The notes under the pieces: generated by a model | Seen by the model: only the letters and a program-made list of their open reading frames with translations | The model's database searches: none | Told to the model about the DNA's origin: nothing | Assembly (NCBI GenBank): GCA_021773635.1 | Contig: JAJFJV010000017.1 | Span: 186,001-250,000 of the forward strand | DNA: 64,000 bases | DNA from: Gammaproteobacteria bacterium | Lineage (GTDB): Bacteria > Pseudomonadota > Gammaproteobacteria > HK1 | Direction of reading: 5' to 3' | Translations under genes and position numbers: made by a program | Shown here: positions 17,140-63,429 of the stretch, piece after piece | How positions within the stretch are numbered: position 1 is the first letter of the stretch | How the letters are laid out: each line of letters starts with the position of its first letter

Positions 17140-17301
17140 GGAACCTGCCGGATTTAGGCGCTCGTCGCGAGGGGAAGCCACTTTGAGACAGATTTTTTGG
17201 TCGTTTGAGGCCAATAGTCATCGCTATTAAACGAAAAGGACCGAGAAATATGGCCAAAATGGCTTTTCCGCAGCAGAGCAGTCCTGAGTCCGACAGGCTC
17301 C
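17140..17301 (+). mobile_element. TIR repeat copy 1 (MITE-like), between nit and tldD
   Basis: The left end is CCTGCCGGATTTAGG and the right end is CCTGAGTCCGACAGGCTCC; they are imperfect inverted repeats of each other. The inside holds the cgctcgtcgcg hairpin, the conserved tttgagacagattttttggt block, and aaaagga before an ATG at 17250. The element codes for no transposase. Its ATG is in frame with tldD. Confidence 0.85.
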
Positions 17302-17312
17302 TGCACAATCCC

Positions 17313-18743
17313 ATGGCCACCGCTCGGCGGGAACTCCTCGCCCCGGGTGGTCTGGATGAACATCACATCCACGCCACCCTGGAAGACATCCTCCGCCACG
17401 ACATTGATCTTGCCGATCTCTACTTTCAGAGCACCCGCCACGAGTCCTGGGTGCTGGAAGACGGCATCGTCAAGGAAGGCTCGCACAACATTGAACAAGG
17501 GGTCGGGGTACGCGCTATCAGCGGTGAAAAGACCGGCTTCGCCTACTCCGAGGAACTGGTGCTACCGGCCCTGCAGGATGCAGCACAAGCGGCACGCGCC
17601 ATCGCCAAGGCCGGCAAGGGTGGTCGGGTACAAGCCTGGGGTCCCGCCGCTGAACGTTCCCTGTATACGCCCTCGGACCCCCTGGCTTCGCTACCACTGG
17701 AGCAGCGCATCGAACTGCTACGCACGGCAGATGCCGAGGCGCGCCGGCAGGATCCCCGCATCCAGCAGGTTATCGTCAGCCTCTCGGGTGAATGGAGTGT
17801 GGTACTCATTGCCGCCAGTGACGGAGTTCTAAGCGCCGATGTACGCCCGCTGGTACGCATGAATGTGACCACCATCGCTGAAAAAGGCGGGCGCCGGGAG
17901 GTGGGTAGTGCCGGAGGTGGTGGCCGTTATACCTATGACTATTTCCAGGGGGGTGATCGGCTGGTGGGCTATGCCCGCGAGGCCGCCCGTCAGGCCCTGG
18001 TCAATCTCGATGCTCGCGATGCCCCGGCCGGAACCATGCCGGTGGTACTCGGCCCCGGCTGGCCCGGGGTGCTGCTGCACGAGGCCATTGGCCATGGCCT
18101 GGAAGGAGATTTCACCCGCAAAGGCAGCTCGGCCTTTTCCGGACGTATCGGCGAACGTGTCGCCTCGGAACAGTGCACCGTGGTAGACGATGGCACCCTG
18201 CCCAATCGCCGCGGCTCCCTGAACGTGGATGACGAAGGGGTGACCACCCGCTGCACGACCCTCATTGAGAACGGCATCCTCGCCGGCTACATGCAGGACA
18301 AGTTGAATGCCGGCCTGAGCAAGGGTGCGGTGACTGGCAACGGTCGCCGTGAATCTTTCGCCTATCCCCCCTGCCCACGCATGACCAATACCTACATGAT
18401 GCCCGGCGCCTACGAGCGTGAGGAGATTATTGCCTCGGTGGAACGCGGTCTCTATGCGGTGAATTTCGGTGGCGGCCAGGTGGATATCACCTCGGGCAAG
18501 TTCGTATTCTCCGCCAGCGAGGCCTATCTCATCGAAAACGGAAAAGTCACCCACCCGGTGAAAGGTGCCACCCTCATAGGCAATGGCCCGGAGGTGCTGA
18601 CCCGGGTCAGCATGGTAGGCAACGACCTGGAACTGGACCCCGGCGTCGGAGTCTGCGGCAAGGAAGGCCAGTCGGTGCCCGTCGGCGTGGGCCAACCCAC
18701 ACTGAAAGTCGATGAGTTAACCGTGGGCGGCACCGCCACATAA
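17313..18743 (+). CDS. tldD: TldD metalloprotease subunit
   Basis: TldD forms a heterodimeric zinc peptidase with TldE/PmbA that degrades unstructured peptides and processes some peptide toxins. The zinc motif HEAIGH is in [14 protein letters not shown] (near residue 255). The N-terminal [20 protein letters not shown] and the C-terminal [15 protein letters not shown] are typical. The native start is taken as ATG 17313 ([16 protein letters not shown]), giving 476 residues. The frame is open upstream to 17205, however, and includes an in-frame ATG at 17250 with a good ribosome site inside the TIR repeat. A 497-residue form with a repeat-derived leader is possible. The partner tldE is not in the window. 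Confidence 0.96.
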
Positions 18744-18755
18744 GGAAGGCAAACC

Positions 18756-20693
18756 ATGATTCCAGAACTTGGACACTTCGCCCTCATTCTCGCCTTCTGC
18801 CTGGCCATGGTGCAGGTCATCCTGCCACTCGCCGGTGCCTGGCGCGGCTGGCCCCGCTGGGTGGCACTGGCCGTGCCCGCGGCCCGGGGACAATTCCTGT
18901 TTCTGATTGTTGCCTTCGCCTGCCTCACCTGGGCCTTCATCGCCAAGGATTTCTCGGTCACCTATGTGGCCAGCAACGCCAACTCAAAACTGCCATTGAT
19001 GTACCGCATCTCCGCGGTCTGGGGCGCCCATGAAGGCTCCTTGTTGCTGTGGGGGCTAACCCTCGCTGGCTGGACCGCGGCGGTCACATTTTTTAGCAAG
19101 GGCCTGCCGGAGATCTTCCGTGCCCGGGTACTGGCAGTCATGGGTTTTGCCAGCAGTGGGTTTCTGCTCTTTCTGCTAACGACTTCCAATCCCTTTAGCC
19201 GGCTGATCCCGGCGGCACCGGAAGGACGCGACCTCAACCCGCTACTGCAGGATCCGGGACTCATCATCCACCCGCCCATGCTTTATATGGGCTACGTGGG
19301 CCTGGCGGTGCCTTTCAGCTTTGCCATCGCCGCGCTGCTGGACGGCAAGCTGGATGCCGCATGGACCCGCTGGACCCGGCCCTGGACCACGGTGGCCTGG
19401 GTCTTTCTGACCCTGGGTATCACCCTCGGCAGCTGGTGGGCCTATTATGAACTTGGCTGGGGTGGCTGGTGGTTCTGGGACCCGGTGGAAAACGCCTCCT
19501 TCATGCCCTGGCTCATTGCCACCGCCTTGATCCACTCGCTTGCCGTAACGGAACAACGCCAGGCCTTCAAGGCCTGGACCGTGCTGCTCTCCATCTTCGG
19601 CTTTGCGCTCAGCCTGCTCGGTACCTTTCTGGTGCGCTCGGGTGTGCTGGTTTCGGTGCATGCCTTTGCCACGGATCCGGCCCGCGGCATCTTCATTCTG
19701 GCCTTTCTTACGGTGGTCATTGCCGGTGCCTTGCTGCTCTTTGCCTGGCGCGCCCACACCATCAGCGGCGGCGGTAACTTCGAGGGCTTTTCCCGGGAAA
19801 CCCTGCTGCTGGTGAATAACGTGCTGCTGGTCGCCGCCAGCGCCACCATCCTGCTCGGCACCCTCTACCCCCTGATTACCGATGCCCTCGGCCTGGGCAA
19901 AATTTCCGTGGGACCACCCTACTTCGAGCGTGTCTTCGTGCCACTCATGCTGCCACTGATTCTGATCATCGGCCTTGGCCCATTGACCCGCTGGAAGAGT
20001 GATCGCCCGCAACGGCTGGCTCCCAAACTGCGCTTCGCGCTGCTAGTCAGTGTGGCGGCTGCTATTGGCCTGGTGGTGGCCTTGTGGCCAGCCGGGCTGA
20101 TGGTGCTGCTCGGTCTCACCCTTGCCATCTGGGTGATAGGCAGCACGGCTCAGGGAGTGATCAGCCGGGTCAGTGGCAAGGCAAACAAGCTACAGGCGCT
20201 GTTTGGCCTGCCGCGTAGTTTTGTCGGCATGAGCCTCGCCCATATCGGCATGGCAGTCTTCATTATCGGGGTAACCGTGACCAGCACCTTCAGCGTGGAG
20301 CGGGATGTACGCCTGGCTCCCTCAGACACGGAGACACTGGCGGGTTATCGCTTTGAGTTCGGCGGAACCAAATCGGTACGGGGTCCCAACTACAACGCCC
20401 AGCGCGGCGATATCCAGGTCTTTCGTGGTGAACGGGCAGTCGCGCTGCTGCAGCCGGAAAAACGGATCTATCTGGCCCAGGGCCAACCGATGACCGAGGC
20501 CGCCATCAACGCCGGCTTTTTTCGCGATCTCTACGTCGCCCTGGGAGAATCTGTTGGCAACGGGGCCTGGACCCTGCGCCTTTATTTCAAACCCTTTATC
20601 CGCTGGATTTGGCTTGGACCGCTGTTAATGGCCCTCGGTGGCCTGCTGGCCGCCTCGGACCGGCGCTATCGCCCACGGAGTAAGGTGGCATGA
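18756..20693 (+). CDS. ccmF: Cytochrome c maturation haem lyase CcmF
   Basis: CcmF is the large inner-membrane subunit that attaches haem to apocytochromes c in system I. The 645-residue protein is highly hydrophobic, with many helices. The periplasmic WWD domain is clear: GGWWFWDPVENASFMPW (near residues 232-250). Conserved periplasmic His residues appear in the early WGAHEGSLLLW and in HPPMLYMGYVG. It starts 12 bp after tldD and overlaps ccmH by 4 bp. Local ccmA-E and ccmG are absent and must be elsewhere if the pathway works. The many c-type cytochromes in this window imply that it does. Confidence 0.97.
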   Translation: MIPELGHFALILAFCLAMVQVILPLAGAWRGWPRWVALAVPAARGQFLFLIVAFACLTWAFIAKDFSVTYVASNANSKLPLMYRISAVWGAHEGSLLLWGLTLAGWTAAVTFFSKGLPEIFRARVLAVMGFASSGFLLFLLTTSNPFSRLIPAAPEGRDLNPLLQDPGLIIHPPMLYMGYVGLAVPFSFAIAALLDGKLDAAWTRWTRPWTTVAWVFLTLGITLGSWWAYYELGWGGWWFWDPVENASFMPWLIATALIHSLAVTEQRQAFKAWTVLLSIFGFALSLLGTFLVRSGVLVSVHAFATDPARGIFILAFLTVVIAGALLLFAWRAHTISGGGNFEGFSRETLLLVNNVLLVAASATILLGTLYPLITDALGLGKISVGPPYFERVFVPLMLPLILIIGLGPLTRWKSDRPQRLAPKLRFALLVSVAAAIGLVVALWPAGLMVLLGLTLAIWVIGSTAQGVISRVSGKANKLQALFGLPRSFVGMSLAHIGMAVFIIGVTVTSTFSVERDVRLAPSDTETLAGYRFEFGGTKSVRGPNYNAQRGDIQVFRGERAVALLQPEKRIYLAQGQPMTEAAINAGFFRDLYVALGESVGNGAWTLRLYFKPFIRWIWLGPLLMALGGLLAASDRRYRPRSKVA

Positions 20694-21196
20694 AGAGACT
20701 TTTCGACTACTCCACTCGCTGGCTTACGGCACTCGTGCTTGCGAGTGGCCTTTGCTATGGCGGGCTCGCCCAGGCGGCAACTTTTGAGGCACGGACCTTT
20801 GATAACCCTGCGCAGGAGGCACGCTACAAAAGCCTCATCCAGGAATTACGCTGCCTCGTCTGCCAGAACCAGAATATTGCTGACTCCAATGCGGAGCTGG
20901 CGGCGGATCTTCGCCGCGAGACCTACAAGATGGTACGCACCGGCGCCAGCGAAGCCGAGATCAAGAACTTCATGGTGTCACGCTACGGGGATTTCGTGCT
21001 CTACAACCCGCCGTTGCGGGCCGCCACCTGGCTACTCTGGGGTGGCCCCTTCCTGTTCATGCTTGTCGGCCTGTGGCTGATGCTGCGCATGGTCCGGCGC
21101 CGGCGGCAGGAAAAGGCCCCGGTACTTTCCGAGGCCGAGCACAAGCGCGTGGAACAACTGCTCCATACGGATGAACACGAGGAGCATACGCTGTGA
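20690..21196 (+). CDS. ccmH: Cytochrome c maturation thiol protein CcmH
   Basis: CcmH is a periplasmic thiol-disulfide protein that handles the apocytochrome CxxCH cysteines. It has a signal peptide (LTALVLASGLCYGGLAQA), then the redox motif LRCLVCQNQNIADSNAELA, then AADLRRETYKMV. A membrane helix near residues 108-130 (WLLWGGPFLFMLVGLWLML) and a basic cytosolic tail follow. The length of 168 residues is normal. It overlaps ccmF and ccmI by 4 bp on each side, so ccmF-ccmH-ccmI is one translationally coupled unit. Confidence 0.95.
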   Translation: MKRLFDYSTRWLTALVLASGLCYGGLAQAATFEARTFDNPAQEARYKSLIQELRCLVCQNQNIADSNAELAADLRRETYKMVRTGASEAEIKNFMVSRYGDFVLYNPPLRAATWLLWGGPFLFMLVGLWLMLRMVRRRRQEKAPVLSEAEHKRVEQLLHTDEHEEHTL

Positions 21197-22455
21197 TCGG
21201 GCTATGGCTGGGAGCCGCCCTGATGGTGCTCGTTGCACTCATCTTTCTTCTTCCACCGCTACTGAGGTCACGAACCCGCCACGCGCCCACGGCAGATCGC
21301 CAGCAACTCAATCTCGCTATCTATCGCAGCCGCCTTGAGGAACTGGAATCCGCCCGCCAGGCAGATGAACTCGATGAGGATGACTACCGGGCAGCCCGGG
21401 AGGACCTTGAGCGCGCAATGATGGCGGATGTGCCCGTGGTGGAGGCTGAAAGTGAGACCCCCAACGCCCCTCACCCGGTCACCGCGGCAGTCCTGGCCCT
21501 TGCAGTTCCAGTGGCGGCCCTGGGCCTCTATCTGGCCCTCGGAAACCCACAGGCACTTTCCCCTGGTACCGTGGTGGCCCGCACCACCGCCCCCACGGAT
21601 GCCACCGGCAGTACTACTCAGTCACTACCCTCGGTAGACAGCATGCTGGCGCAACTGGAAACACGGCTGGCAAGTCATCCCGATGATGCGGAGGGCTGGC
21701 GTCTGCTGGGTCGCTCCTATACCCATCTTGAGCGTCTCGAAGACGCATCACGCGCCTTTTCCCGGGCACGGGCCCTGCGGCCCGACAATCCCGACGCCAT
21801 GCTCGATCACGCGGAAATCCTCGCCAGGCTGGCGGGAAATCGCCTGGAGGGAGAGGCGATGAAACTGGTCAATCGGGCGCTTGCCGTAGACCCCAGCCAT
21901 CGGCGCGCCCTGTGGCTAGGGGGATTCAGTGCCCTGCAGGCCGGCGACAAACCCGGCGCCATAACCCACTGGGAGAAAATTCAGGCCCTGGGCGGACTCG
22001 AGCCGGAAGAGACCCAGATGCTCAACCGTATGCTGGCCCGGGCGCGGGGAGAGGAGGAAGTGGCTCCCAAGGCACCGGCACCCCCGCCATCGACCGCGAG
22101 TGTTGATGGCGCCCGCGTGACGGTGCGTGTCGAGCTGGCGTCGGAACTGCGGGATCAGGCTGCTCCCACGGATACGGTTTTCATCTATGCGCGTGCAGCA
22201 GAAGGTCCGCGCATCCCGCTGGCTATCGTTCGCAAGCAAGTACGTGATCTGCCGCTTACGGTCGCTCTCGACGACTCCATGAGCATGTCCCCTGAATTCC
22301 GGCTTTCTCTCTACCCCGAGGTCATCATTGGCGCACGGATATCCAAATCCGGCAATGCCCGCCCGGACAGTGGCGACCTGCAAGGCAGCAGCGACCGCCT
22401 TCACACGGCAGACACAGGCAAGGTGTCGATTACCATTAATAAACGTCTGCCCTAG
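21193..22455 (+). CDS. ccmI: Cytochrome c maturation apocytochrome chaperone CcmI
   Basis: CcmI presents apocytochrome c to the CcmFH haem lyase. The 420-residue protein has two membrane helices, one N-terminal (MIGLWLGAALMVLVALIFLL) and one near residues 95-115. Between them is the CcmI-type cytosolic loop LNLAIYRSRLEELESARQA. TPR repeats follow from about 145 to 270 (LASHPDDAEGWRLLGRSYTH, RALAVDPSHRRALWLGGF). The C-terminal periplasmic domain begins near residue 300 (RVTVRVELASEL). It is the last gene of the ccmFHI unit. Confidence 0.93.
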   Translation: MIGLWLGAALMVLVALIFLLPPLLRSRTRHAPTADRQQLNLAIYRSRLEELESARQADELDEDDYRAAREDLERAMMADVPVVEAESETPNAPHPVTAAVLALAVPVAALGLYLALGNPQALSPGTVVARTTAPTDATGSTTQSLPSVDSMLAQLETRLASHPDDAEGWRLLGRSYTHLERLEDASRAFSRARALRPDNPDAMLDHAEILARLAGNRLEGEAMKLVNRALAVDPSHRRALWLGGFSALQAGDKPGAITHWEKIQALGGLEPEETQMLNRMLARARGEEEVAPKAPAPPPSTASVDGARVTVRVELASELRDQAAPTDTVFIYARAAEGPRIPLAIVRKQVRDLPLTVALDDSMSMSPEFRLSLYPEVIIGARISKSGNARPDSGDLQGSSDRLHTADTGKVSITINKRLP

Positions 22456-22473
22456 GAACCGGCTGCTACGGCT

Positions 22474-23214
22474 ATGCCACCCACGACTGTCGGGAAAATC
22501 ATCCAATGGTTGGGCGTTGACCCAAACCCGGTCAGCCACACCGAAAAGGCGGTGGCCACTCTGGGGGCCTTTGTCGGCATTTTTCTGACCGCCTGGATCA
22601 GCCTGCATGTGGTGCAGACGCCCGCTGCGATCATGATTGTAGGTTCCGTGGGAGCATCCGCGGTACTGCTTTTCGCGGTTCCGCACGGTCAGCTCACGCA
22701 GCCATGGGCGCTGCTTGGCGGCCATTTGGTTTCCGCCTTCGTGGGCGTGAGCTGCGTAAAATTTGTGCCCGGCGGACTCATATTCGTTGCAGCGCTCGCC
22801 GTCTCGCTGGCCATTGGGGCCATGCATATAACACGCTGCATTCATCCCCCGGGGGGTGCGACCGCTTTGATAGCGGTTATCGGGGGCGCCGGTATCCACG
22901 ATCTGGGGTATGGCTATGTCCTCATACCTATCGGGCTCAATGCCCTGCTGATACTCCTGGTCGCCGTTGCCTTTAATTACCCCTTCGCCTGGCGGCGTTA
23001 TCCGGCAGCGCTCCATACCCGGCATGAACACGTGCCACCTACGCCCAGCGGCATCCGGCTTGAAGATATAGAGCTTGAGGATATTGAACACGCACTGCAC
23101 GCGCTCGATACACCGATTGATGTGCCGGAGGAAGAGTTACAACTGATTTACGAACTGGCCGAACAGCACGCGATACAGCGACACGCCGGAAATCCCAAGC
23201 CACGACAACTTTAA
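22474..23214 (+). CDS. HPP family membrane protein
   Basis: A 246-residue integral membrane protein. The defining HPP motif lies in RCIHPPGGATALIAVIGG (near residues 128-145). Four hydrophobic segments are visible between residues 25 and 170 (TLGAFVGIFLTAWISLHVV, VGSVGASAVLLFAV). A hydrophilic acidic cytosolic tail ends the protein. Some members of the family have been linked to nitrite transport, but that role is not established for this subtype, which lacks a CBS domain. It follows ccmI by 18 bp and may be cotranscribed. Confidence 0.88.
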   Translation: MPPTTVGKIIQWLGVDPNPVSHTEKAVATLGAFVGIFLTAWISLHVVQTPAAIMIVGSVGASAVLLFAVPHGQLTQPWALLGGHLVSAFVGVSCVKFVPGGLIFVAALAVSLAIGAMHITRCIHPPGGATALIAVIGGAGIHDLGYGYVLIPIGLNALLILLVAVAFNYPFAWRRYPAALHTRHEHVPPTPSGIRLEDIELEDIEHALHALDTPIDVPEEELQLIYELAEQHAIQRHAGNPKPRQL

Positions 23215-23285
23215 TTCACTGCAAGCCCGAAAGGTCTGTTACACTCCGCCGCTTCAGGGTGCTTAGCGGTTTGCACCTCTCTGAA

Positions 23286-23301
23286 GGCGGCTTCTGCCGC
23301 C
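23286..23301 (+). other. Hairpin in the rhlE leader
   Basis: GGCGGC-TTCT-GCCGCC is a perfect 6-bp stem with a TTCT loop, 88 bp before the rhlE start. It may end the HPP transcript or act in the helicase leader; no T run follows. Confidence 0.4.
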
Positions 23302-23388
23302 ATCTCTAAACATTCCTTTAACCGGATCCCCTTAAGACCGTCCCCGATGCCCTGCATCGAGTAGGTGGATCCCGGAGCATTATTTTCC

Positions 23389-24687
23389 ATGTCATTTGAA
23401 AACCTCGGCCTGTCGGCCGAATTGCTGCGCGCGATCGCAGAACAAGGCTACACCGAAGCAACCCCGGTACAACAACAAGCCATCCCCGTTATTCTCGAAG
23501 GCAGAGACATCCTTGCCGGCGCCCAGACCGGTACCGGCAAGACCGCCGGATTTACCCTGCCGCTGCTGCAACTGCTCAGTGAACACGCCCAGGGCAAGGG
23601 ACAACGCCCGGTGCGGGCACTGGTCCTGACCCCCACCCGCGAGCTGGCGGCCCAGGTGGAGCAGAGCGTCAAGACCTATGGCCGCCATCTGCCACTGCAC
23701 TCGGCGGTGATCTTCGGCGGCGTCAAAATCAACCCGCAGATCGCGCAACTGCGTAAGGGTGTGGACGTCCTGGTGGCGACCCCCGGCCGCCTGCTTGATC
23801 ATCTCGGTCAGAAGACCCTGAATCTTTCCCACGTAGAGATCCTGGTCCTGGATGAGGCGGATCGGATGCTCGATATGGGCTTCATCCACGACATCCGCAA
23901 GGTGTTGGCACATCTGCCCGAAGAACGTCAGAACCTGATGTTCTCAGCCACTTATTCCAATGAAATCAAACGTTTGACCAGCAGCATGCTGAACAACCCG
24001 GCGATGATCGAGGTGGCCCGGCGCAGCCTGGCCGCGGAATCCGTCGACCAGCTGGTGCACCCGGTGGACAAGAAGCGCAAACCCGCCCTGCTGTCCTGGC
24101 TGATCGGGTCAAAAAACTGGCAGCAAGTGTTGGTATTCACCCGCACCAAGCACGGTGCCAACCGTCTGACCAAACATCTGGAAAAGGATGGCCTGAGCGC
24201 CGCCGCCATTCATGGCAACAAGAGCCAGGGCGCCCGTACCCGCGCGCTCGCCGGCTTCAAGAAGGGTGAGACCCGCGTCCTGGTGGCCACTGATATCGCC
24301 GCACGGGGTCTGGATATCGCCCAGCTACCACACGTGGTGAATTACGAATTACCGAACGTTTCGGAAGACTACGTGCACCGCATCGGCCGCACTGGCCGGG
24401 CGGGTCTGGAAGGACAGGCCATCTCGTTGGTCTGCGTGGATGAACTCAAACTGCTGAAAGATATCGAACGCCTGCTCAAACGTGATATCCCCAAGGAAAT
24501 CATCGAGGATTTTGAGCCGGACCCCAGCATCAAACCTGAGCCAATTCAAAATGGCCGTAATCGGCCCTCGGGTGGTGGACGCCGCCAGCAGCGCGGCCGA
24601 CCATCAGGTGGACACAAGCGGCCCAGAGCGGGTGCGAGTAAAGGCAACAGTGGTGGCAACAACTGGAAATCTACCGGCACCCGCTAA
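23389..24687 (+). CDS. rhlE: ATP-dependent DEAD-box RNA helicase, RhlE type
   Basis: A DEAD-box RNA helicase of 432 residues. It has the Q motif and the P-loop [13 protein letters not shown] (near residues 43-55), [10 protein letters not shown], and the DEAD box in [13 protein letters not shown] (near 155). The SAT motif is FSATYS, and the C-terminal helicase motifs are [12 protein letters not shown] and [10 protein letters not shown]. The tail after residue 390 is rich in Arg, Gly and Gln, typical of RhlE and likely to bind RNA. ATG 23389 ([20 protein letters not shown]) is the family start. The role is probably ribosome assembly or RNA decay. Confidence 0.95.
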
Positions 24688-24725
24688 CTCCTTCCGCACC
24701 ATCCTCGATACTGCTCCAAACCCAA

Positions 24726-24752
24726 TGTGCGGCACACCATGTGTGCCGCACA
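24726..24752 (+). terminator. Perfect 12-bp hairpin after rhlE
   Basis: TGTGCGGCACAC-CAT-GTGTGCCGCACA is a perfect 12-bp stem with a 3-base loop, 38 bp after the rhlE stop. There is no T run, so it may be a factor-dependent terminator, an RNA stabiliser or a DNA palindrome. The remaining bases to 24925 show no gene I can support. Confidence 0.5.
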
Positions 24753-30288: not shown

Positions 30289-30347
30289 ACCAAAACCTCC
30301 TCGCCTTGTGGAAAGGCGTTCATTTAAAGTGGGCCGTCCTTGGCTTG

Positions 30348-30508
30348 GGAGTCTGTTGGACTTAGGTCTGCTCGGCTGTGGAAAAGCCATATTGGCCATA
30401 TTTACCGGTCCTTTTCGTCTAATAGAATGACTATTATCCTCAAACGACCAATAAATCTGTCTCAAGATGGCATCCCCTCGCGACGAGCGCCTAAGTCCGA
30501 CAGACTCC
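30348..30508 (-). mobile_element. TIR repeat copy 2 (MITE-like), between copB and the DUF2933 gene
   Basis: The two ends read GGAGTCTGTTGGACTTAGG and, inverted, GGAGTCTGTCGGACTTAGG: 19-bp terminal repeats with one mismatch. The inside holds the ctcgtcgcgagg hairpin, ttgagacagatttattggtc, and aaaggaccgg before ATG 30402. It encodes no transposase. It is oriented with the DUF2933 gene and in frame with it. Confidence 0.88.
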
Positions 30509-30519
30509 TGGGTAACCAA

Positions 30520-54833: not shown

Positions 54834-54837
54834 TAAC

Positions 54838-55815: not shown

Positions 55816-55835
55816 CGGGGCCCTGCAGGGCCCCG
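55816..55835 (+). promoter_or_regulatory. Perfect 20-bp palindrome in the rpsB leader
   Basis: CGGGGCCCTGCAGGGCCCCG is a perfect palindrome inside the 158-nt leader. The rpsB leader of gammaproteobacteria is known to bind S2 for autoregulation; this stem is a likely part of that structure. The rest of the stretch 55615-55941 holds the promoter and leader but no gene. Confidence 0.5.
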
Positions 55836-55941
55836 AAATCCGCACACGCACCGTCACAGGGTTCCGGGTGCTCGCGCCAGCTAGCGCGGGTTGAGTTCTG
55901 GGGTGCGTGGAGGCCAAACCCACTATATCAGGAGTTATAAA

Positions 55942-56784
55942 ATGGCAGACGTTTCGATGCGCGACATGCTCGAAGTCGGGGTTCACTTCGGTCATCGGAC
56001 CCGCTACTGGGACCCGCGCATGGCCCCCTATATTTTCGGTGAGCGGAAAAAAATCCACATCATCGATCTCGAGAAAAGCCTTCCCCTTTACCGCGACGCC
56101 GTACACTTTCTCGGCCGCATGGCCGCCAATCGCGGCGTCATCCTGTTCGTCGGCACCAAACGTGCTGCCCAGGAGGCCGTGCGTGAGGAAGCCGCTCGCT
56201 GTGGCATGCCCTATGTCGACCGACGCTGGCTCGGCGGCATGCTGACCAACTTCAAAACCGTGTCGGGCCGGGTCAAACGGCTGCTGGATCTGGAGAAAAT
56301 GGAAGCTGAGGGTGGTTTCGATAAGCTCAGCAAAAAGGAAACCCTTTCGCGCCGGCGTGAGATGGAAAAGCTCGAACGCAGCCTGGGTGGCATCAAAAAC
56401 ATGAACGGCCTGCCCGATGTCCTCTTCATCGTCGATGTTGGACACGAAGACATCGCTGTTCAGGAGGCCGTGAAGCTGGGCATTCCGGTGGTCGGCGTGG
56501 TGGATACCAACAACAGCCCCGAGGGTGTGGATTACATCATTCCCGGCAACGATGACTCCATCGGTGCCATCCAGCTCTACGTAAAGGGTGTTGCCGACGG
56601 CATTCTTGATGCGCGCACGGTGAGTGAAGGTGCGGCCGCAATGGAGAAGATTGCCGCTGCCGTAACTGAGGAGAGTACTGCCACCGAAGCGGCAGAGTCA
56701 CCCGCCCCAGCCGCGGAAACTGAAGCGGCTCCAGCGGCAGAAGCGCCTGCTTCAGAGACCGAGGCCGCCACGCCCTCTTCCTGA
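55942..56784 (+). CDS. rpsB: 30S ribosomal protein S2
   Basis: A core small-subunit protein. ATG 55942 ([20 protein letters not shown]) follows an AGGAG ribosome site. The 280-residue protein contains the S2 signatures [36 protein letters not shown]-like [20 protein letters not shown], and [20 protein letters not shown]. It has a long Ala/Glu/Pro-rich C-terminal tail (from about residue 245) beyond the usual fold, found in some proteobacteria. It heads the rpsB-tsf-pyrH-frr unit. Confidence 0.98.
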
Positions 56785-56810
56785 GCATTGCTCGAGCCAG
56801 CCCCACAGTA

Positions 56811-56831
56811 CCCCGGGCAAACACCCCGGGG
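56811..56831 (+). terminator. Hairpin between rpsB and tsf
   Basis: CCCCGGG-caaacac-CCCGGGG (56811-56831) is a 7-bp GC stem 27 bp after the rpsB stop, without a T run. It probably acts as a partial terminator or processing site, as in other rpsB-tsf operons. Confidence 0.5.
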
Positions 56832-56890
56832 TCCAAACTTAAAAATATCGCCGTCAACTAGCGGTGGCGATCAGTCAGGTGATTAGGATC

Positions 56891-57772
56891 ATGCAGATCA
56901 GTGCAGCATTAGTTAAAGAATTACGCGGGCGCACCGGCGCCGGCATGATGGAATGCAAAAAGGCCCTGGTAGCGGCCGAGGGCGACGTTGAAAAGGCCCT
57001 GGATACCATGCGTCGTGATGGCCAGGCCAAGGCAGATAAAAAGGCCAGCCGAATTGCAGCCGAGGGCCTGGTGGCCTTTGCCGTTGATGGCGCCAGGGCT
57101 GCCATAGCCGAGGTCAACTGTGAAACTGACTTCGTCGCCAAGGAAAATGAGTTTCAGGATTTCCTCCAGGCAGTAACCGGACGCGTGCTGGCCAAGTCTC
57201 CAGCAGATGTCAGCGCCCTGGCTGAAGTCTCCATGGATGATGACGGTGGCCCCACGGTCGAGGAGCGGCGCCGGGAGCTGGTAGCAAAGATTGGCGAGAA
57301 TATCTCGGTACGGCGTTTCGCCACCCTGGAAAGCAGCGACGGCACCCTCGGCAGTTATCTGCACGGTGGTCGTATCGGCGTACTGGTCGAACTTGATGGT
57401 GGCAGCGAAGATATCGCTCGCGACATCGCCATGCACGTGGCCGCCAGCCGCCCCTTATGCGTTTCCGAAGCCGAAGTGCCCGCCGATGAGGTGGCACGGG
57501 AAAAGGCCATCCTGGTGGGTCAGGCCGCGGACAGCGGCAAGCCCGAGGCGATTATCGAGAAAATGGTTGCCGGACGGATGAAGAAATACTTCGCCGAAAT
57601 CACCCTGCTCGGCCAGGCCTTTGTAAAAGACCCTGACCTCTCGGTGGAGAAATACCTCAAGCAGAACGGCTGCACGGTACGACGCTTTGTACGCTTTGAG
57701 GTCGGAGAGGGCATGGAAAAGCGCTCGGAAAACTTTGCCGAAGAAGTAAAGGCCCAGGTGCAAGCCAGCTAA
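56891..57772 (+). CDS. tsf: Elongation factor Ts
   Basis: EF-Ts exchanges GDP for GTP on EF-Tu. ATG 56891 (MQISAALVKELRGRTGAGMM) gives 293 residues. The N-terminal UBA-like module ends in ECKKALVAAEGDVEKALDTM, and the TDFVAKEN motif of the core contacts EF-Tu. The C-terminal KYLKQNGCTVRRFVRFEVGE is typical. The open frame upstream to 56864 is not family-like. It is cotranscribed with rpsB. Confidence 0.98.
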   Translation: MQISAALVKELRGRTGAGMMECKKALVAAEGDVEKALDTMRRDGQAKADKKASRIAAEGLVAFAVDGARAAIAEVNCETDFVAKENEFQDFLQAVTGRVLAKSPADVSALAEVSMDDDGGPTVEERRRELVAKIGENISVRRFATLESSDGTLGSYLHGGRIGVLVELDGGSEDIARDIAMHVAASRPLCVSEAEVPADEVAREKAILVGQAADSGKPEAIIEKMVAGRMKKYFAEITLLGQAFVKDPDLSVEKYLKQNGCTVRRFVRFEVGEGMEKRSENFAEEVKAQVQAS

Positions 57773-57781
57773 AGCCTGCCC

Positions 57782-58510
57782 ATGCCCGCCCCCGAGCTCA
57801 AATATCGGCGTATCCTGCTCAAACTGAGCGGTGAAGCGCTTATGGGGTCAGGGGATTACGGCATAGACCCGGCGGTACTGGAACGCCTTGCCAGCGAGAT
57901 CAAGGATCTGGTTGCCGCCGGCGTTGAACCCGGCATCGTCATCGGTGCCGGGAATATCTCCCGGGGAGCCAGCTTGGCGGATCAGGGTATGGCACGGGTG
58001 ACGGGCGATCACATCGGTATGCTGGCAACCGTGATCAACAGCCTGGCGCTACAGGACATCCTGGAACGTCACGGGCTGTCCACGCGGGTGATGTCGGCGT
58101 TGCCGGTCAACACGGTCTGTGAGGACTACCAGCAACGGCGTGCCATTCGTCATCTCGAGAAGGGTCGTGTAGTCATTTTTGCTGCCGGCACGGGCAATCC
58201 CTTCTTCACCACGGATTCTGCGGCCAGCCTGCGTGCCATCGAGATCGATGCCACGCTGATGATCAAGGCCACCAAGGTGGACGGTGTATATAGCGCCGAC
58301 CCGATGCTTGATGCAGGCGCCGAACGCTACACTCACCTTGATTACGACCGGGTGCTGGCTGAACGACTCGGGGTCATGGACGCAACGGCAATCGTCCTGT
58401 GTCGTGATCACGGCATGCGCCTGCGGGTACTCGACATGAACCAGAAAGGAGGCCTGCTGGCAGCGGCACGCGGCGAAGCCGTAGGCACTCTCATCGATGG
58501 CAATCAATAA
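57782..58510 (+). CDS. pyrH: Uridylate kinase PyrH
   Basis: PyrH phosphorylates UMP to UDP. The 242-residue protein has [16 protein letters not shown] at the start, [20 protein letters not shown], and the C-terminal [16 protein letters not shown]. The phosphate-loop segment reads [11 protein letters not shown], whereas most PyrH proteins have GGGNIFRG; the Gly-to-Ala and Phe-to-Ser changes are worth noting, though the fold is intact. It lies 9 bp after tsf. Confidence 0.96.
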
Positions 58511-58526
58511 AGTGAGGCCCTAAGCC

Positions 58527-59084
58527 ATGCTGGAAGATATTAAATCGGATGCGACTCAGCGCATGGGAAAAAGCGTCAAAGCGCTACAGGGTACGCTGAC
58601 CAAACTGCGCACCGGCCGCGCCCACACCAGCCTGCTGGATCATATCCTCGTTCCTTACTATGGCAGCGATGTGCCCATAAACCAGGTGGCAAATATCGCC
58701 GTTGGCGATGCCCGCACGCTGACCGTGACGCCTTGGGAAAAGCCCATGATGCAGGTCGTGGAAAAGGCCATCCGCGACTCGGATCTTGGCCTTAACCCGG
58801 TCACCTCGGGGACGGTCATGCGGGTACCGCTGCCAGCACTGACCGAGGAACGCCGGCGCGATATGACACGTATTGTGCGTCAGGAAGCGGAAGGGACACG
58901 GGTGGCCATCCGCAATATCCGCCGTGATGCGAATCACACCCTCAAGGAGTTGCTCAAGGAAAAGGAAATCACCGAGGACGATGAGCGCCAGGGCGAGCAG
59001 GAGATGCAGCAACTCACGGATCGCTTTATCGCCGAGGTGGAACAGATACTCAAGGACAAAGAAACCGAGCTGATGGAGGTTTGA
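58527..59084 (+). CDS. frr: Ribosome recycling factor
   Basis: Frr splits post-termination ribosomes with EF-G. The 185-residue protein is the normal length. Signatures are [60 protein letters not shown] and the Glu-rich C-terminal helix. The gene lies 16 bp after pyrH, in the standard order. Confidence 0.98.
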
Positions 59085-59132
59085 TTCCCCTCCCTCCGCC
59101 CTGTATCCCGGTCTTATTTGGCTTCCCTGACG

Positions 59133-59876
59133 ATGCCCGCTGAAACCCCCACACTGCCCAGACATATCGCCATCATTATGGACGGTAACGGGCGCTGGGC
59201 ACGACAACGCCACCTGCCGCGCTTTGCCGGACACAAGGCGGGGGTCGATACCGTCAGAAAACTGGTACGACATTGCGGCGAGATGGGCATTTCAGCCATG
59301 ACTCTGTTTGCCTTCAGCAGTGAGAACTGGCGACGCCCCGAGAAGGAAGTCAGTCTGCTAATGGGGCTGTTTGTCACTGCCCTGGAGCAACAGCTTAAAA
59401 AACTGAACAAACACAATGTACGCCTGCGCATCATCGGTGACCGCAGCCCATTCAACGCCAAACTCAAGGCCTTGATTGACGACGCCGAGGCCCGCACCAG
59501 CGATAATACCGGCCTGGAGCTTGTGATCGCGGCCAATTACGGCGGTCGCTGGGATATCTGTCAGGCAGCACGCACACTGGCAAGGCTGGCCAGCCAGGGC
59601 GCACTTGATCCGGATGCAATCAGCCCGGAACTACTGCAGTCGCATCTGAGCCTGAACGATCTGCCAGAGCCGGACCTCTTTATCCGCACCGGCGGTGAAA
59701 AACGGGTCAGCAACTATCTGTTGTGGCAACTGGCCTACACCGAGTTCTATTTCACCGACACCCTGTGGCCTGATTTTGACCACATCGCCCTCGAAAAGGC
59801 CCTCAGTTCCTATCGCTCCCGTGAACGCCGCTTCGGCCGTACCAGCGAACAAATCTCCGCAGCTCAGGATGACTGA
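59133..59876 (+). CDS. uppS: Undecaprenyl diphosphate synthase UppS
   Basis: A cis-prenyltransferase that makes the C55 lipid carrier for cell-wall precursors. From ATG 59133 (MPAETPTLPRHIAIIMDGNG) it has 247 residues. The Asp of IIMDGNGRWARQ and the HKAG motif (FAGHKAGVDTVRKLVRH) form the catalytic core, and DLFIRTGGEKRVSNYLLWQL and YTEFYFTDTLWPDF are conserved. The open frame from TTG 59118 adds five unlikely residues. The stop is 6 bp before cdsA. Confidence 0.97.
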   Translation: MPAETPTLPRHIAIIMDGNGRWARQRHLPRFAGHKAGVDTVRKLVRHCGEMGISAMTLFAFSSENWRRPEKEVSLLMGLFVTALEQQLKKLNKHNVRLRIIGDRSPFNAKLKALIDDAEARTSDNTGLELVIAANYGGRWDICQAARTLARLASQGALDPDAISPELLQSHLSLNDLPEPDLFIRTGGEKRVSNYLLWQLAYTEFYFTDTLWPDFDHIALEKALSSYRSRERRFGRTSEQISAAQDD

Positions 59877-59882
59877 AAGAGC

Positions 59883-60704
59883 ATGAGCGGTCTCGGCGCC
59901 CGCCTCGCCACCGCCGGGATTCTGGCCCCCCTGTTGCTTGCCGGGGTGCTTTACCTGCCAACGCTTTGGCTTGCCTTTGCGCTCGCCTTCTTTGTCCTGC
60001 TCGCCGCATGGGAGTGGAGTGGCCTCATGGGCTGGCAACGCCCTGCGGCACGGGCCGCCTATACCGTGCTTGTGACCGCTGCGCTTGCCCTCGTCTATCT
60101 GGTGAATACCATTTCCCTGCCCCTGTGCATGCTTGCCCTTGGCTGGTGGCTCTACGCCTTCCGCTGGCTCATCCGCCAACAACTCGCGGCCCCGGATGCC
60201 AGCCCGCGTCTGTTTCTTCCCCTGCCGCTCACGGGCCTGCTGATCCTGTTGCCCGCCTGGAGTGGATTGGTTCATCTGCATGGCCAGGGTGAAGAAGGTC
60301 GCCTCTTCATGGTGTTGCTGCTACTGCTCATATGGGGTGCAGATTCCGGAGCCTATTTTGCCGGTCGCACCTGGGGAAACCGGCGCCTGGCATCGCGTAT
60401 CAGCCCCGGTAAAACGTGGGAAGGTGTAGGGGGCGCTCTGGTCGCCACCGCCGCACTGGCATCGGCAGCAGCAATGTATCTGGAATTGGGATTATCTGCG
60501 GCACTTTTGCTGCTCTCCCTCTGTCTACTGACCACTCTGGTCTCCATTGGCGGCGACCTGGCAGAAAGCCTGTTCAAGCGCCGCGCCGGAGTCAAAGACA
60601 GCGGCAGTCTGCTGCCGGGGCATGGCGGTATACTGGACCGCATCGACAGCCTCACCGCGGCTGCCCCGTTCTTCGTCCTCGGACTCTACTTCACAGGGCT
60701 ATAA
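59883..60704 (+). CDS. cdsA: Phosphatidate cytidylyltransferase CdsA
   Basis: CdsA makes CDP-diacylglycerol for phospholipid synthesis. The 273-residue protein is mostly membrane-embedded, with about eight helices. The signature KDSGSLLPGHGGILDRIDSL near the C-terminus and DSGAYFAGRTWGNRRLA are typical, and GKTWEGVGGALVAT lies between them. The stop overlaps or abuts dxr. The order uppS-cdsA-dxr is standard. Confidence 0.97.
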   Translation: MSGLGARLATAGILAPLLLAGVLYLPTLWLAFALAFFVLLAAWEWSGLMGWQRPAARAAYTVLVTAALALVYLVNTISLPLCMLALGWWLYAFRWLIRQQLAAPDASPRLFLPLPLTGLLILLPAWSGLVHLHGQGEEGRLFMVLLLLLIWGADSGAYFAGRTWGNRRLASRISPGKTWEGVGGALVATAALASAAAMYLELGLSAALLLLSLCLLTTLVSIGGDLAESLFKRRAGVKDSGSLLPGHGGILDRIDSLTAAAPFFVLGLYFTGL

Positions 60705-61883
60705 GTGATTGGCATCAGCATACTGGGATCCACCGGCAGTATCGGGCTCAACACCCTGGATGTCATCGCCCGGAATCGGGGACGCTTCCGGGTGGTTGCC
60801 CTGACGGCCAACAGTAGCGACGAACGGCTGGCAGAACAGTGCATCGAGTGGCAACCGGAGTTTGCCGTGATGGCGGATGCGGATGCCGCGGAACGCCTGC
60901 AGCGACGCCTCCATAACACAGAGTCATCGACTATCGTCTTGGCCGGCACTGAAGGACTGGAACAAGTTGCCGCCCTGCCGCAGGTAGGCTATGTCATGGC
61001 CGCCATTGTGGGCGCTGCGGGATTGCTGCCAACACTGGCAGCGGCGCGGGCGGGGAAACGGGTCCTGCTCGCGAACAAGGAAGCCCTGGTGATGTCCGGG
61101 CAACTATTGATAGACGCGGTCCACGAGCATGGTGGTGAACTGCTACCCATCGACAGCGAACACAACGCCATCTTTCAGGCCATGCCCCCGCCCGGTGCTG
61201 CCGGGCTGGACCAGGCGGGCGTACGACGCATCCTGCTTACTGGCTCGGGAGGTCCCTTCCGCACCCGCCCGCTGGAAAGTTTTCACGAAATTTCTCCCGC
61301 CGAGGCCTGTGCCCACCCGAACTGGAAGATGGGGCGCAAAATCTCGGTAGATTCGGCCACCATGATGAATAAGGGGCTGGAACTCATCGAGGCCTGCTGG
61401 CTGTTTGCCACCGGACCAGAACGCATCGAGGTATTGATTCACCCGCAGAGCGTTATCCACTCCATGGTGGAATACAGCGACGGCTCGGTACTGGCGCAGC
61501 TGGGAAACCCGGACATGCGCACCCCCATTGCGCACGCCCTGGCCTGGCCAGAGCGGATCGACGCAGGCGTTGCGGCACTGGACCTGGTAAAGATTGCGGG
61601 TCTCAGCTTCGAGGCACCGGATACCGAGCGCTTTCCCTGCTTGCGCCTGGGCTTTGAAGCCGCACGGGCGGGCGGCACCGCCAGCGTTCATCTCAATGCC
61701 GCCAATGAGATCGCGGTAGACGCCTTCCTTAACGGGAAACTGTCCTTTACGGATATTCCGCGGGTTATTGAGCACACGCTTGAAGCTCACACAATGGTGC
61801 CGGTGCAGGATCTCGACACCGTACTTGCCGCTGATCACGCGGCCCGCGCCACCGCCGCCACCTGTATCGCAGAGCTCTCCTGA
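60705..61883 (+). CDS. dxr: 1-deoxy-D-xylulose-5-phosphate reductoisomerase
   Basis: Dxr is the second enzyme of the MEP isoprenoid pathway and feeds UppS. It starts at GTG 60705 ([20 protein letters not shown]). The 392-residue protein has the NADPH-binding GSTGSIG, then [25 protein letters not shown] and [11 protein letters not shown]. The metal- and substrate-binding [20 protein letters not shown] follows. The stop is 2 bp before rseP. Confidence 0.98.
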
Positions 61884-61885
61884 TT

Positions 61886-63250
61886 ATGGAATTTCTTTAT
61901 TCCGTTCTCTCCTTCGTGGTGGTCGTTGGCATCCTCATAACGGTGCATGAATTTGGCCACTTCTGGGTTGCCCGCAAGCTGGGCGTCAAGGTGCTGCGCT
62001 TTTCTATTGGTTTCGGCCGCCCGCTGTGGAGTGGCCGGCGTGCCAATGATGACACCGAGTACGTGCTCGCCCTGATCCCCTTGGGGGGATACGTGAAGAT
62101 GCTCGATGAAAATGAGGCCCCGGTTGCCAGGGAAGAGCTATCCAGGGCCTTTAATCGCAAGCCCCTCGCCGTGCGTGCCGCGGTAGTGATTGCCGGCCCG
62201 CTCGCCAATTTCCTGTTTGCCATTTTTGCCTGCTGGGCCATGTACGTCAGCGGCATCGAGGGATTACGCGCTACCGTTGGAACGGTCGAAACAGGCAGCG
62301 TCGCCATGACCGCCGGTCTTCATGACGGTCAGCAAATCCTGCGTGTGGGTGAGCGCGAGGCACGCACATGGGACGCGGTTATCCAACGACTGATCGGCAG
62401 TGCCCTGGGGCAACAAAAGGTCGAGATCACTGTCCGGGAAACAGACGATCGACAGCGGACTCTGGAACTTCCACTGGACGACATTTCCCTGGATGCGCTC
62501 GCCCGCGGCGGATTTTTCGACGAACTGGGCATCACCCCCCAACGCCCGAGCCTGCCAGCGGTTATCGGCCGGATTGAGGCCGGCGGAGCTGCGGAAAAAG
62601 CAGGTCTTGAACCCGGGGACCGTATCGTACTCGCGGCGGGTAAGAGCATAGGAAACTGGGGGGCCTGGGTTGAGGCTATCCGTGCACGACCCGACCAGAC
62701 CTTTCCCGTCACTATCGAACGCGAAGGCATCACCCACACCCTCGAACTCCGTCCCAAGGCGATCAAACGCGGCGGCAACGTGATTGGACGTATCGGCGCC
62801 GCTGCCAGGGTGCCGGAAGACTGGCGTGCCCGGCACTACGTCAGCCAACGCTATGGCCTGCTTGAAGCCATTCCCCGCAGCCTCGAAAAAACCTGGGATT
62901 TCACCACTTTGACCCTTGGTATGTTCTGGAAGATGCTGACCCTCGAGGTCTCCAGCGAAAATCTCAGTGGCCCCATTAGTATCGCCCAGTACGCTGGCCA
63001 CTCGGCTCAGGCCGGCCTGTCACGCTTTCTCGAATTCCTTGCCATCGTCAGCGTCAGCCTCGGTGTCCTCAATCTACTGCCTATACCAATACTGGATGGT
63101 GGACACCTGATGTATTATTTTATCGAGCTTTGCACCGGCCATCCCCCAGCGGAAGCGGTCCAACTACTCGCACAACGCTTTGGCATTGCGGTGATTATTG
63201 GCTTGATGAGCCTGGCACTTTACAATGACCTCGCCCGGCTACTCGGCTGA
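61886..63250 (+). CDS. rseP: Site-2 protease RseP
   Basis: An inner-membrane zinc protease that cleaves RseA to release sigma-E and trims signal peptides. The 454-residue protein has the zinc motif HEFGH in ITVHEFGHFWVARKLGV (near residue 22). Two PDZ domains occupy the middle (GLHDGQQILRVGEREARTWD; AGLEPGDRIVLAAGKSIGNW). The second metal motif is NLLPIPILDGGHLMYYF (near 395). The stop is followed 20 bp later by a TIR repeat that separates it from bamA. Confidence 0.97.
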   Translation: MEFLYSVLSFVVVVGILITVHEFGHFWVARKLGVKVLRFSIGFGRPLWSGRRANDDTEYVLALIPLGGYVKMLDENEAPVAREELSRAFNRKPLAVRAAVVIAGPLANFLFAIFACWAMYVSGIEGLRATVGTVETGSVAMTAGLHDGQQILRVGEREARTWDAVIQRLIGSALGQQKVEITVRETDDRQRTLELPLDDISLDALARGGFFDELGITPQRPSLPAVIGRIEAGGAAEKAGLEPGDRIVLAAGKSIGNWGAWVEAIRARPDQTFPVTIEREGITHTLELRPKAIKRGGNVIGRIGAAARVPEDWRARHYVSQRYGLLEAIPRSLEKTWDFTTLTLGMFWKMLTLEVSSENLSGPISIAQYAGHSAQAGLSRFLEFLAIVSVSLGVLNLLPIPILDGGHLMYYFIELCTGHPPAEAVQLLAQRFGIAVIIGLMSLALYNDLARLLG

Positions 63251-63269
63251 GCGCTGAATTCGTCGTAAA

Positions 63270-63429
63270 GAATCTGTCGGATTCAGGCGCTCGTAGCGAG
63301 GGGAAGGCATTTTGAGACAGATTTTTCGGTCATTTGAGGATAATAACCGAGCTATTAGACGAAAAGGACCGGAAAATATGGCCAAAATGGCTTTTCCGCA
63401 GTAGAGCAGTCCTAAGTCCGACAGACTCC
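63270..63429 (+). mobile_element. TIR repeat copy 3 (MITE-like), between rseP and bamA
   Basis: The left end AATCTGTCGGATTCAGG and the right end CCTAAGTCCGACAGACTCC form an 18-bp imperfect terminal inverted repeat. The inside holds the cgctcgtagcg hairpin, ttttgagacagatttttcgg, and aaaaggaccgg before ATG 63379, here followed by MAKMAFPQ and a stop. It is oriented with bamA. The remaining bases of the gap 63251-63551 hold nothing else that I can identify. Confidence 0.9.

Follow-up and report, generated by a model that had tools for sequence, protein, structure and literature searches.

A Widespread Family of Hairpin Elements, Probably Mobilized in trans by IS1182 Transposases

Introduction

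MITEs are usually seen as remnants of a single insertion sequence that are confined to one lineage and do not last long. A repeat of about 160 bp that recurs in the stretch of DNA analyzed here (64 kb, hereafter the window) raises the question of whether it is a leftover of this kind, a regulator of the genes beside which it lies, or an element maintained for reasons of its own. A preliminary description of the window had proposed that the copies are always co-oriented with the gene downstream of them and may be kept for an effect on its expression, while allowing that the repeat could be a MITE mobilized by a transposase from another place in the genome; it had also suggested looking for target-site duplications and for a complete transposon that shares the ends.

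Results

The three full copies that had been described were recovered with matching ends. Copy 1 (17140-17301, plus strand; 17137-17304 with flanking dinucleotides) is an older copy with flanks CA/TG, located between an ORF ending at 17135 (putatively nitrilase-like, by eye) and an ORF called tldD in the preliminary description. Copy 2 occupies 30348-30508 (minus strand; outer bounds 30345-30511), and copy 3 (63269-63429, plus strand; outer bounds 63266-63432) is preceded by an ORF ending at 63250 and followed by one that had been called bamA. The terminal repeats differ from GGAGYCTGTCGGAYTTAGG by two mismatches on the left (17140-17158, plus) and one on the right (17283-17301, minus) in copy 1, by one (30348-30366, plus) and none (30490-30508, minus) in copy 2, and by three on the left (63269-63287, plus) and none on the right (63411-63429, minus) in copy 3. 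With up to three mismatches allowed, the end pattern matched six times in the window, compared to 0.01 matches expected from shuffles. A fragment previously placed at 2302-2363 belongs to the family over about 2321-2363 (plus strand), where it comprises the left arm and loop side only; the remainder did not match and the fragment is without a terminal repeat.

The element measures about 161 bp, or 167-169 bp when the flanking CTA and TAG are counted, and is therefore too short for a transposase gene. It is also non-coding, bears terminal inverted repeats, and is present in several copies per genome, all of which are features of MITEs. Each full copy folds as a single imperfect hairpin spanning the whole element, with a fold z-score of -7.7 for a window copy and of -12.2 on one strand and -9.1 on the other for a second copy of the same genome (L008). 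The inner and second hairpins that had been described as separate units thus both belong to one full-length structure. No match to Rfam was detected in the window at the gathering threshold, and a permissive search with two loci (L113 and L155) returned only a sub-threshold match to mir-2188 that lies outside of the element. A literature search for 14-letter pieces of the ends returned a single paper, on dam methylation in Salmonella, that is unrelated judging by its title.

With a covariance model, carriers numbered 83 among 369 genomes of the class and 48 among 398 genomes sampled across the phylum. Among the latter carriers, 41 are outside the class, and 39 of these fall in one taxonomic family. 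Two or more classes of a single phylum, Pseudomonadota according to named records, carry the element, and the cultured carriers include Thioalkalivibrio denitrificans and Pseudomaricurvus alcaniphilus. One query found no copy in phages, viral contigs yielded no match to two internal hairpin patterns, and plasmids yielded one copy with one query and none with another.

Six copies in the genome of the window (G000), namely those at 17140 and 63269 and four younger ones (L006-L009), are missing at the orthologous places in both congeners (G001 and G002). Junctions are clean at three of these empty sites and the flanks have diverged at the other three; the surroundings of copy 2 (30348-30508) are not conserved in the congeners, and it hence has no readable empty site. 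The filled site at L006, the one site at which the duplication was read directly, contains exactly two extra bases (TA) relative to both empty sites. Among 77 copies from other loci, conservation ends at C-TA/GGAG...CTCC/TA-G (slashes mark the element boundaries), TA is present on both flanks of 52, and the first G is kept in all 77, even in the 15 with a base other than G following the right TA. Retention of this G without a matching G on the right flank fits a duplication of 2 bp and not of 4 bp. Collectively, these observations point to C-TA-G as the target, with TA duplicated upon insertion; such duplication combined with insertion polymorphism is characteristic of MITEs.

IS1182-family transposons (ISAzo2 and relatives) have ends that match the outer 15-21 bp of the hairpin. 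The end CTAGSAGYCTGTCGGA was identified in 42 viral contigs, 16 of which hold at least 240 bp inward of it; an IS1182 transposase lies inward in 10 of the 16 and outward in none of the 42. Five IS1182 elements were read end to end in viral contigs (1457-1637 bp; L274 and L292 are the same element), and the two transposases scanned match NF033551 (E about 1e-108). L284 and L299 match the first end subtype more fully than any other locus, and a transposase-like ORF (by eye) begins in each; these loci were left out of the IS1182 count because too little sequence follows for a match. Eight IS1182 elements, ISAzo2 included, were read among 16 plasmid records, with the end at both sides in five and at one side in three, at 0-2 mismatches. 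On plasmid pMPC6-328K, what is left of an IS1182 transposase gene is situated about 140 bp away from the hairpin (L223). The hairpin has two end subtypes, ...GTCGGACTTAGG and ...GTCCGAGAATAG, with IS1182 counterparts (CTAGCAGCCTGTCGGACTTAG in L357; CTAGGAGTCTGTCGGACTTA in L274 and L355), and the counterpart CTAGGAGGCTGTCCGAGAAT is present in L301 of G126, a genome that bears the hairpin element. The terminal repeats therefore match those of an autonomous element, in viral contigs, in G126, and on plasmids, as is typical of MITEs.

An autonomous partner in the same genome is usual for MITEs and not required; one with both ends is present in G126 and none was found in G000-G002. No IS1182 transposase was detected in G000, G001, or G002 (E up to 1e-10), though the positions of copies differ among them; the draft assemblies may lack the gene, or it may have been lost. 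Likewise, no complete transposon sharing the hairpin's ends was found in the genome of the window, where two lone ends that were inspected (L042 and L049) proved to be fragments. Among 16 element-bearing genomes, only G126, G052, and G007 match the IS1182 transposase over the family cut-off. Among loci read, only the IS1182 of G126 shows both ends and a partial one in G073 shows one, while IS1182 copies in four members of the window's family (G004, G008, G013, and G015) are without hairpin-type ends. End pairs are 160-179 bp apart in 75 of 95 cases (L111-L223), and the three longer pairs that use an end outside the short pairs (272, 1879, and 4255 bp; L116, L212, and L188) contained no IS1182 transposase. 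Inspection by eye of 66 end-pattern rows in the complete genome G137 identified no facing pair 0.8-3 kb apart.

None of 104 hairpin interiors matched any of ten IS1182 elements by BLASTN. In a profile search (E 0.0005 to 0.016), three IS1182 elements matched weakly at their ends, with the longest matches reaching 34 to 53 bp into the element, which leaves room for some interior relation to IS1182 near the ends. An interior made of left-over IS sequence, as internal deletion of an insertion sequence would give, is not supported by these comparisons.

Because the ends are shared, TA is duplicated, and insertions are polymorphic, we infer that an IS1182 enzyme does the moving, which supports the earlier suggestion of a MITE whose transposase is supplied from another place. 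An IS1182-family transposase from another element would recognize ends of the type CTAG[G/C]AG[C/T]CTGTC[G/C]GA... and paste the element at the TA of a CTAG target, duplicating the TA. IS630 (Tc1/mariner-type) likewise takes TA in CTAG, and the target and 2-bp duplication are as in IS630/ISY100 (PMC2170065, where the CTAG preference is given in the title of a cited paper), such that an IS630 MITE might be considered. However, the transposase domain PF13358 was present in 2 of 12 genomes searched and not found in G000-G002, the six scanned loci among nine IS630 loci were without a facing end pair within three mismatches of CTAGGAGTCTGTCGGACTTAGG-type ends, and the hairpin ends match IS1182 instead. 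We regard an IS630 origin as most improbable.

The idea that the element persists because it regulates the gene downstream drew on the four copies noted in the window and their apparent orientation. However, only codirectional spacers are informative, because between divergent genes either orientation reads toward a gene and between convergent genes neither does, a point that the 1-in-8 chance assigned to the window copies leaves out of account. In codirectional spacers from many genomes, the element ran in the same direction as the genes in 31 cases and in the opposite direction in 31. These counts exclude copies near locus ends and repeated contexts, as well as 29 of 132 contexts that lacked a gene on one side, had one at a distance above 500 bp, or had one running across the copy. 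They rely on a codon-model gene caller, used in place of a cruder caller that took antisense ORFs in GC-rich DNA and that gave 33 and 34. The distribution of copies among codirectional (62), divergent (20), and convergent (21) spacers was similar to background (121, 35, and 37, respectively); an excess in convergent spacers obtained with the cruder caller (35 versus 24) vanished with the codon model (21 versus 20). Random orientation is the outcome that the preliminary description had itself set against an effect on downstream expression, and none of the six copies with readable sites is conserved between congeners. Retention as a regulator is consequently very unlikely.

The median distance from a copy to a gene 3' end is 9 bp, and a TAG stop codon is the insertion site of 37 among 129 copies. 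Since the element starts with G, the TAG is re-formed when a C-TAG stop codon receives a copy, and tolerance of such insertions would help to explain the copies near gene 3' ends.

Stem covariation across all 47 selected diverse copies was 0.404, compared to 0.163 (sd 0.006) in shuffles, none of 500 of which reached the observed value, and at most 0.136 in slid controls; a 41-copy version agreed. Paired cells amounted to 89.4% in the 47 copies versus 74.9 in shuffles, and both sides have changed in 50 of 70 stem pairs. Length is nearly constant, with 129 of 138 distinct copies measuring 167-169 bp. In a set of 104 copies (the 138 minus those >93% alike or with >12 gaps), the bulged or mismatched bases G28, A34, A50, G71-A72, G74, A94, G96-A97, A135, and G136 are near-invariant, each being present in 98-104 copies. 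Long quasi-palindromes undergo templated correction between arms, and such correction during replication could produce covariation without selection on the fold. It would, however, erase mismatches, and here mismatched bases rank among the most conserved positions and length is rigid, which makes this explanation improbable. Because the stem covaries, the bulges are near-invariant, and the length is almost constant, the folded form appears to be selected, with letters of the stem turning over while pairing stays.

This covariation fits a role as DNA or as RNA alike. It is possible, if doubtful, that the hairpin is kept since its transcript works as RNA (a 3'UTR stabilizer, an RNase III/E substrate, or a small RNA) and that transposition merely spreads it. 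Folded as RNA, the plus strand is more stable than the other in 100 of 104 copies, with a mean difference of 12.8 kcal/mol, G-U cells outnumber A-C cells (393 versus 243), a total that favors the plus strand, copies lie close behind genes, and copies of ERIC and Correia elements are reported to act through RNase E/III in the available text of PMC10969869. Against this, the G-U excess per base pair is not significant (35 versus 29 pairs, p = 0.53), the element is without an Rfam match in the sequences searched, and, with random orientation to flanking genes, the plus strand would be transcribed along with the gene only about half the time.

Discussion

The results argue strongly for a widespread MITE family that is mobilized in trans by IS1182 transposases and whose folded form is under selection. 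Unlike an ordinary deletion-derived MITE, its interior is, on the sequence comparisons made here, a rigid hairpin of near-constant length and not recognizable IS1182 sequence. Most likely, an extruded form (cruciform or single-stranded) would aid transposition or survival of the element, the main alternative being a role for its transcript. We tentatively suggest that the element may be a mobile fold and not a decayed insertion sequence, in which a protein (the IS1182 transposase or a host factor) would read the extruded hairpin, its fixed bulges (G28, A34, A135-G136, and tandem G-A), and its ends, making it a structure-recognized parasite of IS1182 that has lasted in two or more classes of bacteria.

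Length, bulges, and fold are the same in about one-fifth of sampled genomes of the class and in another class of the phylum, despite turnover of the stem letters, and this constancy suggests that selection has long acted on a folded nucleic acid, here in a transposon with no room for a transposase gene. The family offers a testable system for asking whether IS1182-family DDE transposases, for which stem-loop targets have been suspected before, take folded DNA as their substrate. The covariance model can also be used to annotate a repeat family without an Rfam match in the sequences searched.

Among known systems, we know of no REP elements with IS1182-type ends. REP elements (GTAG- and CGTC-tagged) resemble the hairpin in being palindromic and present in many copies, as described in the available text of PMC3733652, but measure 20-40 bp versus about 165 bp. 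The ERIC and YPAL repeats of enterobacteria are likewise intergenic and fold as stem-loops, the YPAL model comprising 168 positions (PMC2267715, in the portion available); an E. coli collection gave no match to the hairpin with one query copy. For IS1272, which belongs to the IS1182 family, inverted-repeat or stem-loop targets have been reported, with the stem-loop being replaced and no target duplicated (PMC5678879, in part), whereas at L006 the TA is duplicated and no replaced sequence was observed. IS1182-family insertion sequences (ISAzo2 and relatives) share the terminal repeats CTAG[GC]AG[CT]CTGTCGGACT over 15-21 bp but encode a transposase, measure 1457-1825 bp where measured, and have an interior unmatched by the hairpin (BLASTN).

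The closest known element is MITEPye1 of Paracoccus yeei, described in 2024 and the only IS1182-type MITE in the text available from a literature search (PMC11578231, likewise in the text available for what follows). By description and not by sequence, MITEPye1 differs in that it is reported from one alphaproteobacterial species, at 1-3 copies per chromosome and with 4-bp direct repeats, and in that covarying structure across species is not described in that text. It resembles the hairpin in being 159 bp long, ORF-less, and intergenic, in folding as a long stem-loop, and in having 18-bp terminal repeats that resemble those of the IS1182-family ISPye18, with IS1182 transposases as its proposed mover.

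Copies in the Window and Its Genome

Sequence searches of the window returned three full copies of the hairpin element, at 17140-17301 (+), 30348-30508 (-) and 63269-63429 (+), in agreement with the preliminary description, whereas the family fragment placed there at 2302-2363 spans only 43 bp (2321-2363). The terminal pattern of the element had six matches in the window versus 0.01 expected. A genome-wide count had also been proposed; with the first copy as query, 21 places were identified in the window's own genome (2.55 Mb, 46 contigs, the window being contig 9, 186001-250000). By inspection, these represent ten copies that are nearly complete, one of them with an insert inside it, and an eleventh that two inserts interrupt, together with several fragments and two opposite-strand self-matches. 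The end pattern, allowing up to three mismatches, had 29 matches in this genome versus 5 for a reversed control.

Two copies in this genome, on contigs 30 and 32, carry an extra REP-like insert of ~50 bp at the hairpin loop (GCATCCTGC...CTACATCCCTGTAG type; L010 1586-1636 and L011 1588-1638). These loop inserts are 83% alike, and one of the two copies has a second insert in its right arm (L011 1679-1727). A different repeat of ~125 bp, with arms GTCATACCGGGCTTGACCCGGTATCC and GGATTCCGG...GGAATGACG, is present at window positions 13024-13152 and has further copies in both congeners; we take it to resemble CGTC-tagged REP repeats. The sole Rfam match of the window at the gathering threshold is a t44 RNA (55823-55919).

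Mobility and Target Site

The hairpin element moves. In both congeners (G001 and G002), the sequences that flank the copies at 17140 and 63269 adjoin each other with no element between them, and four younger copies from the same genome (L006-L009) are likewise missing from both, although the flanks of L007-L009 have diverged and their junctions are not clean. All six readable copies were therefore absent from both congeners; the site of the 30348 copy was not readable because its surroundings are not conserved.

The target-site duplication for which a check had been suggested is TA: compared with either empty site, the filled site at L006 is longer by two bases, TA. Among 77 copies from other loci, some of which share a genome, the conserved pattern is C-TA|GGAG...CTCC|TA-G with random flanks beyond, and TA flanks 52 of them on both sides. 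All 77 elements begin with G, even the 15 in which another base follows the right-hand TA. These data agree with a preference for CTAG as target and duplication of 2 bp (TA), but not with a 4-bp duplication.

Position Relative to Genes

The preliminary description had each copy oriented toward its downstream gene, a claim that falls once more copies are considered. A codon-model gene caller allowed 103 of 132 contexts to be classified, and in codirectional spacers 31 hairpins pointed in the same direction as the genes and 31 in the opposite direction; divergent and convergent spacers held 20 and 21 copies, respectively (background spacers: 121 codirectional, 35 divergent, 37 convergent). The median distance from a copy to a gene end was 9 bp for 3' ends and 84.5 bp for 5' ends. 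The TAG stop codon of an ORF of at least 120 codons was formed by 41 of 173 CTAG ends (in 37 of 129 copies) versus 60 of 808 other CTAG strand-sites (p = 7e-9), but this control includes intragenic sites, from which insertions would be eliminated, and the excess thus reflects where copies survive and not necessarily the cutting preference of the enzyme. The stop codon is restored on insertion because the element begins with G.

A Conserved Fold

The inner and second hairpins recognized in the preliminary description do fold, but not as separate structures: the element is one imperfect hairpin over its full length. For the first window copy, its fold energy lay 7.7 standard deviations below that of shuffles; for the own-genome copy L008 the difference was 12.2 (9.1 on the other strand). 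Covariation was evaluated on an alignment of 47 diverse copies, built from sequence alone, using a 70-pair hairpin selected by Watson-Crick fraction in a larger set of 104 copies. In this set, 89.4% of cells were paired versus 74.9 when shuffled, both sides had changed at 50 of the pairs, and the covariation score was 0.404, against which shuffles scored 0.163 (sd 0.006) and slid partners no more than 0.136; because the 47 copies share ancestry and also belonged to the set on which the structure was picked, both controls somewhat favor it, with the bias greatest in the percentage paired and the two-sided changes less affected. An RNAalifold consensus fold of 24 copies had compensatory change in 37 of 56 pairs. 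Some of the strongest conservation is at bulged or mismatched positions (G28, A34, A50, G71-A72, G74, A94, G96-A97, A135, and G136, each kept in 98 to 104 of the 104 copies), and G71-A72 with G96-A97 presumably forms a tandem sheared G-A motif.

Length is similarly constrained. With flanking CTA and TAG included, 129 of 138 distinct full copies are 167-169 bp, and truncated forms that retain both ends are uncommon (9 of 95 end pairs span < 140 bp). Were the ends alone important, lengths would be expected to vary. The fold of the element is under selection. The + strand is more stable as RNA in 100 of 104 copies, while G-U versus A-C per pair was 35 to 29 (p = 0.53), and a DNA role and an RNA role cannot be separated by these data.

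Distribution Among Genomes

BLAST identified the hairpin in 16 of 143 genomes, the window's own included. A covariance model identified it in 83 of 369 genomes (67 of 272 genera) of the Gammaproteobacteria and in 48 of 398 genomes sampled across the phylum, 41 of which were outside the class (39 from family f207, the other two from f204 and f227, one apiece). Of 20 copies that were read, 14 from outside the class, nearly all had the same motifs and ends by eye. Copy L347 (101-266, genome G576; 84 bits) is strongly diverged, with ends and stem letters that differ at many places although the model aligns its full length, and could represent the margin of a broader family.

A scan of named genomes yielded at least 112 stretches carrying the family. 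Thioalkalivibrio, Sedimenticola, Thiomicrorhabdus, Pseudomaricurvus, Candidatus Thiodiazotropha, and Pseudomonas were among the matches listed; E. coli had no match with one hairpin query. MAG records titled Klebsiella pneumoniae (L117) and Bacteroidetes (L116, L122, L145, and L174) were also among the matches listed, which may reflect incorrect titles or mixed bins.

IS1182 Transposases as the Candidate Mover

A search of loci totalling 780 kb from other genomes yielded no full transposon with the same ends, suggested earlier as a source of mobility, nor was one apparent in the complete genome G137, where the end-pattern listing was judged by eye. A scan of viral contigs for CTAGSAGYCTGTCGGA yielded 42 contigs. 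Some hold complete elements, 1457 to 1637 bp from end to end, in which such ends (0 or 1 mismatch) enclose a transposase; L274 and L292 carry the same element and count as one. Two of the transposases were scanned, and both match IS1182 (NF033551, E about 1e-108). Where at least 240 bp lay inward of the end (16 contigs), the transposase was present on that side in 10; none of the 42 contigs had it outward. As the 16-base pattern is short and chance matches are possible, the evidence is the inward transposase, not the number of matches. Related transposases were present in 16 plasmid records; of the eight elements read, ISAzo2 of Aromatoleum among them, five had the end on both sides and three on one (0-2 mismatches).

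Both end subtypes of the hairpin have IS1182 counterparts. The first (...GTCGGACTTAGG) corresponds to CTAGCAGCCTGTCGGACTTAG (L357) and CTAGGAGTCTGTCGGACTTA (L274 and L355), and the second (...GTCCGAGAATAG) to CTAGGAGGCTGTCCGAGAAT at the right end of L301 (GAGAAC at the left), an IS1182 from the hairpin-bearing genome G126. A second-subtype hairpin on plasmid pMPC6-328K (NZ_CP034782.1; L223 6001-6166) lies ~140 bp from the remnant of an IS1182 transposase gene (6309-6556). This is a conjugative plasmid of Pseudomonas sp. MPC6, and the copy on it is a possible transfer route.

Counting against IS1182 as the mover, its transposase was not detectable in the window's genome or in either congener, and paired hairpin-type ends were absent from the IS1182 loci read in other genomes of the window's family. 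The earlier suggestion of a MITE is nevertheless retained in that the hairpin is most probably a MITE-type element mobilized by IS1182 transposases, even with none detectable in its own genome. Its interior, judged by sequence, differs from IS1182: none of 104 hairpin interiors matched ten IS1182 elements by BLASTN, and a whole-hairpin profile matched the ends of three of the ten weakly (E 0.0005 to 0.016), the longest of these matches extending 34 to 53 bp into the element. Short elements with IS1182-type ends that by eye lack this hairpin's motifs were also observed (147 bp, L294 7647-7793; 98 bp, L295 8309-8406) and are perhaps ordinary deletion-type IS1182 MITEs.

Comparison With Known Elements

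The family has no match in Rfam and is undescribed in the literature searched, which covered few subscription journals and did not extend to ISfinder. IS630 elements also take TA and CTAG, according partly to the title of a reference cited in the source (PMC2170065). IS1272, of the IS1182 family, is reported to replace stem-loop targets (PMC5678879). MITEPye1, with 159 bp, IS1182-type ends, and a long stem-loop, is the same kind of element as the hairpin (PMC11578231). The unexpected part is the covarying hairpin, which is widely conserved.
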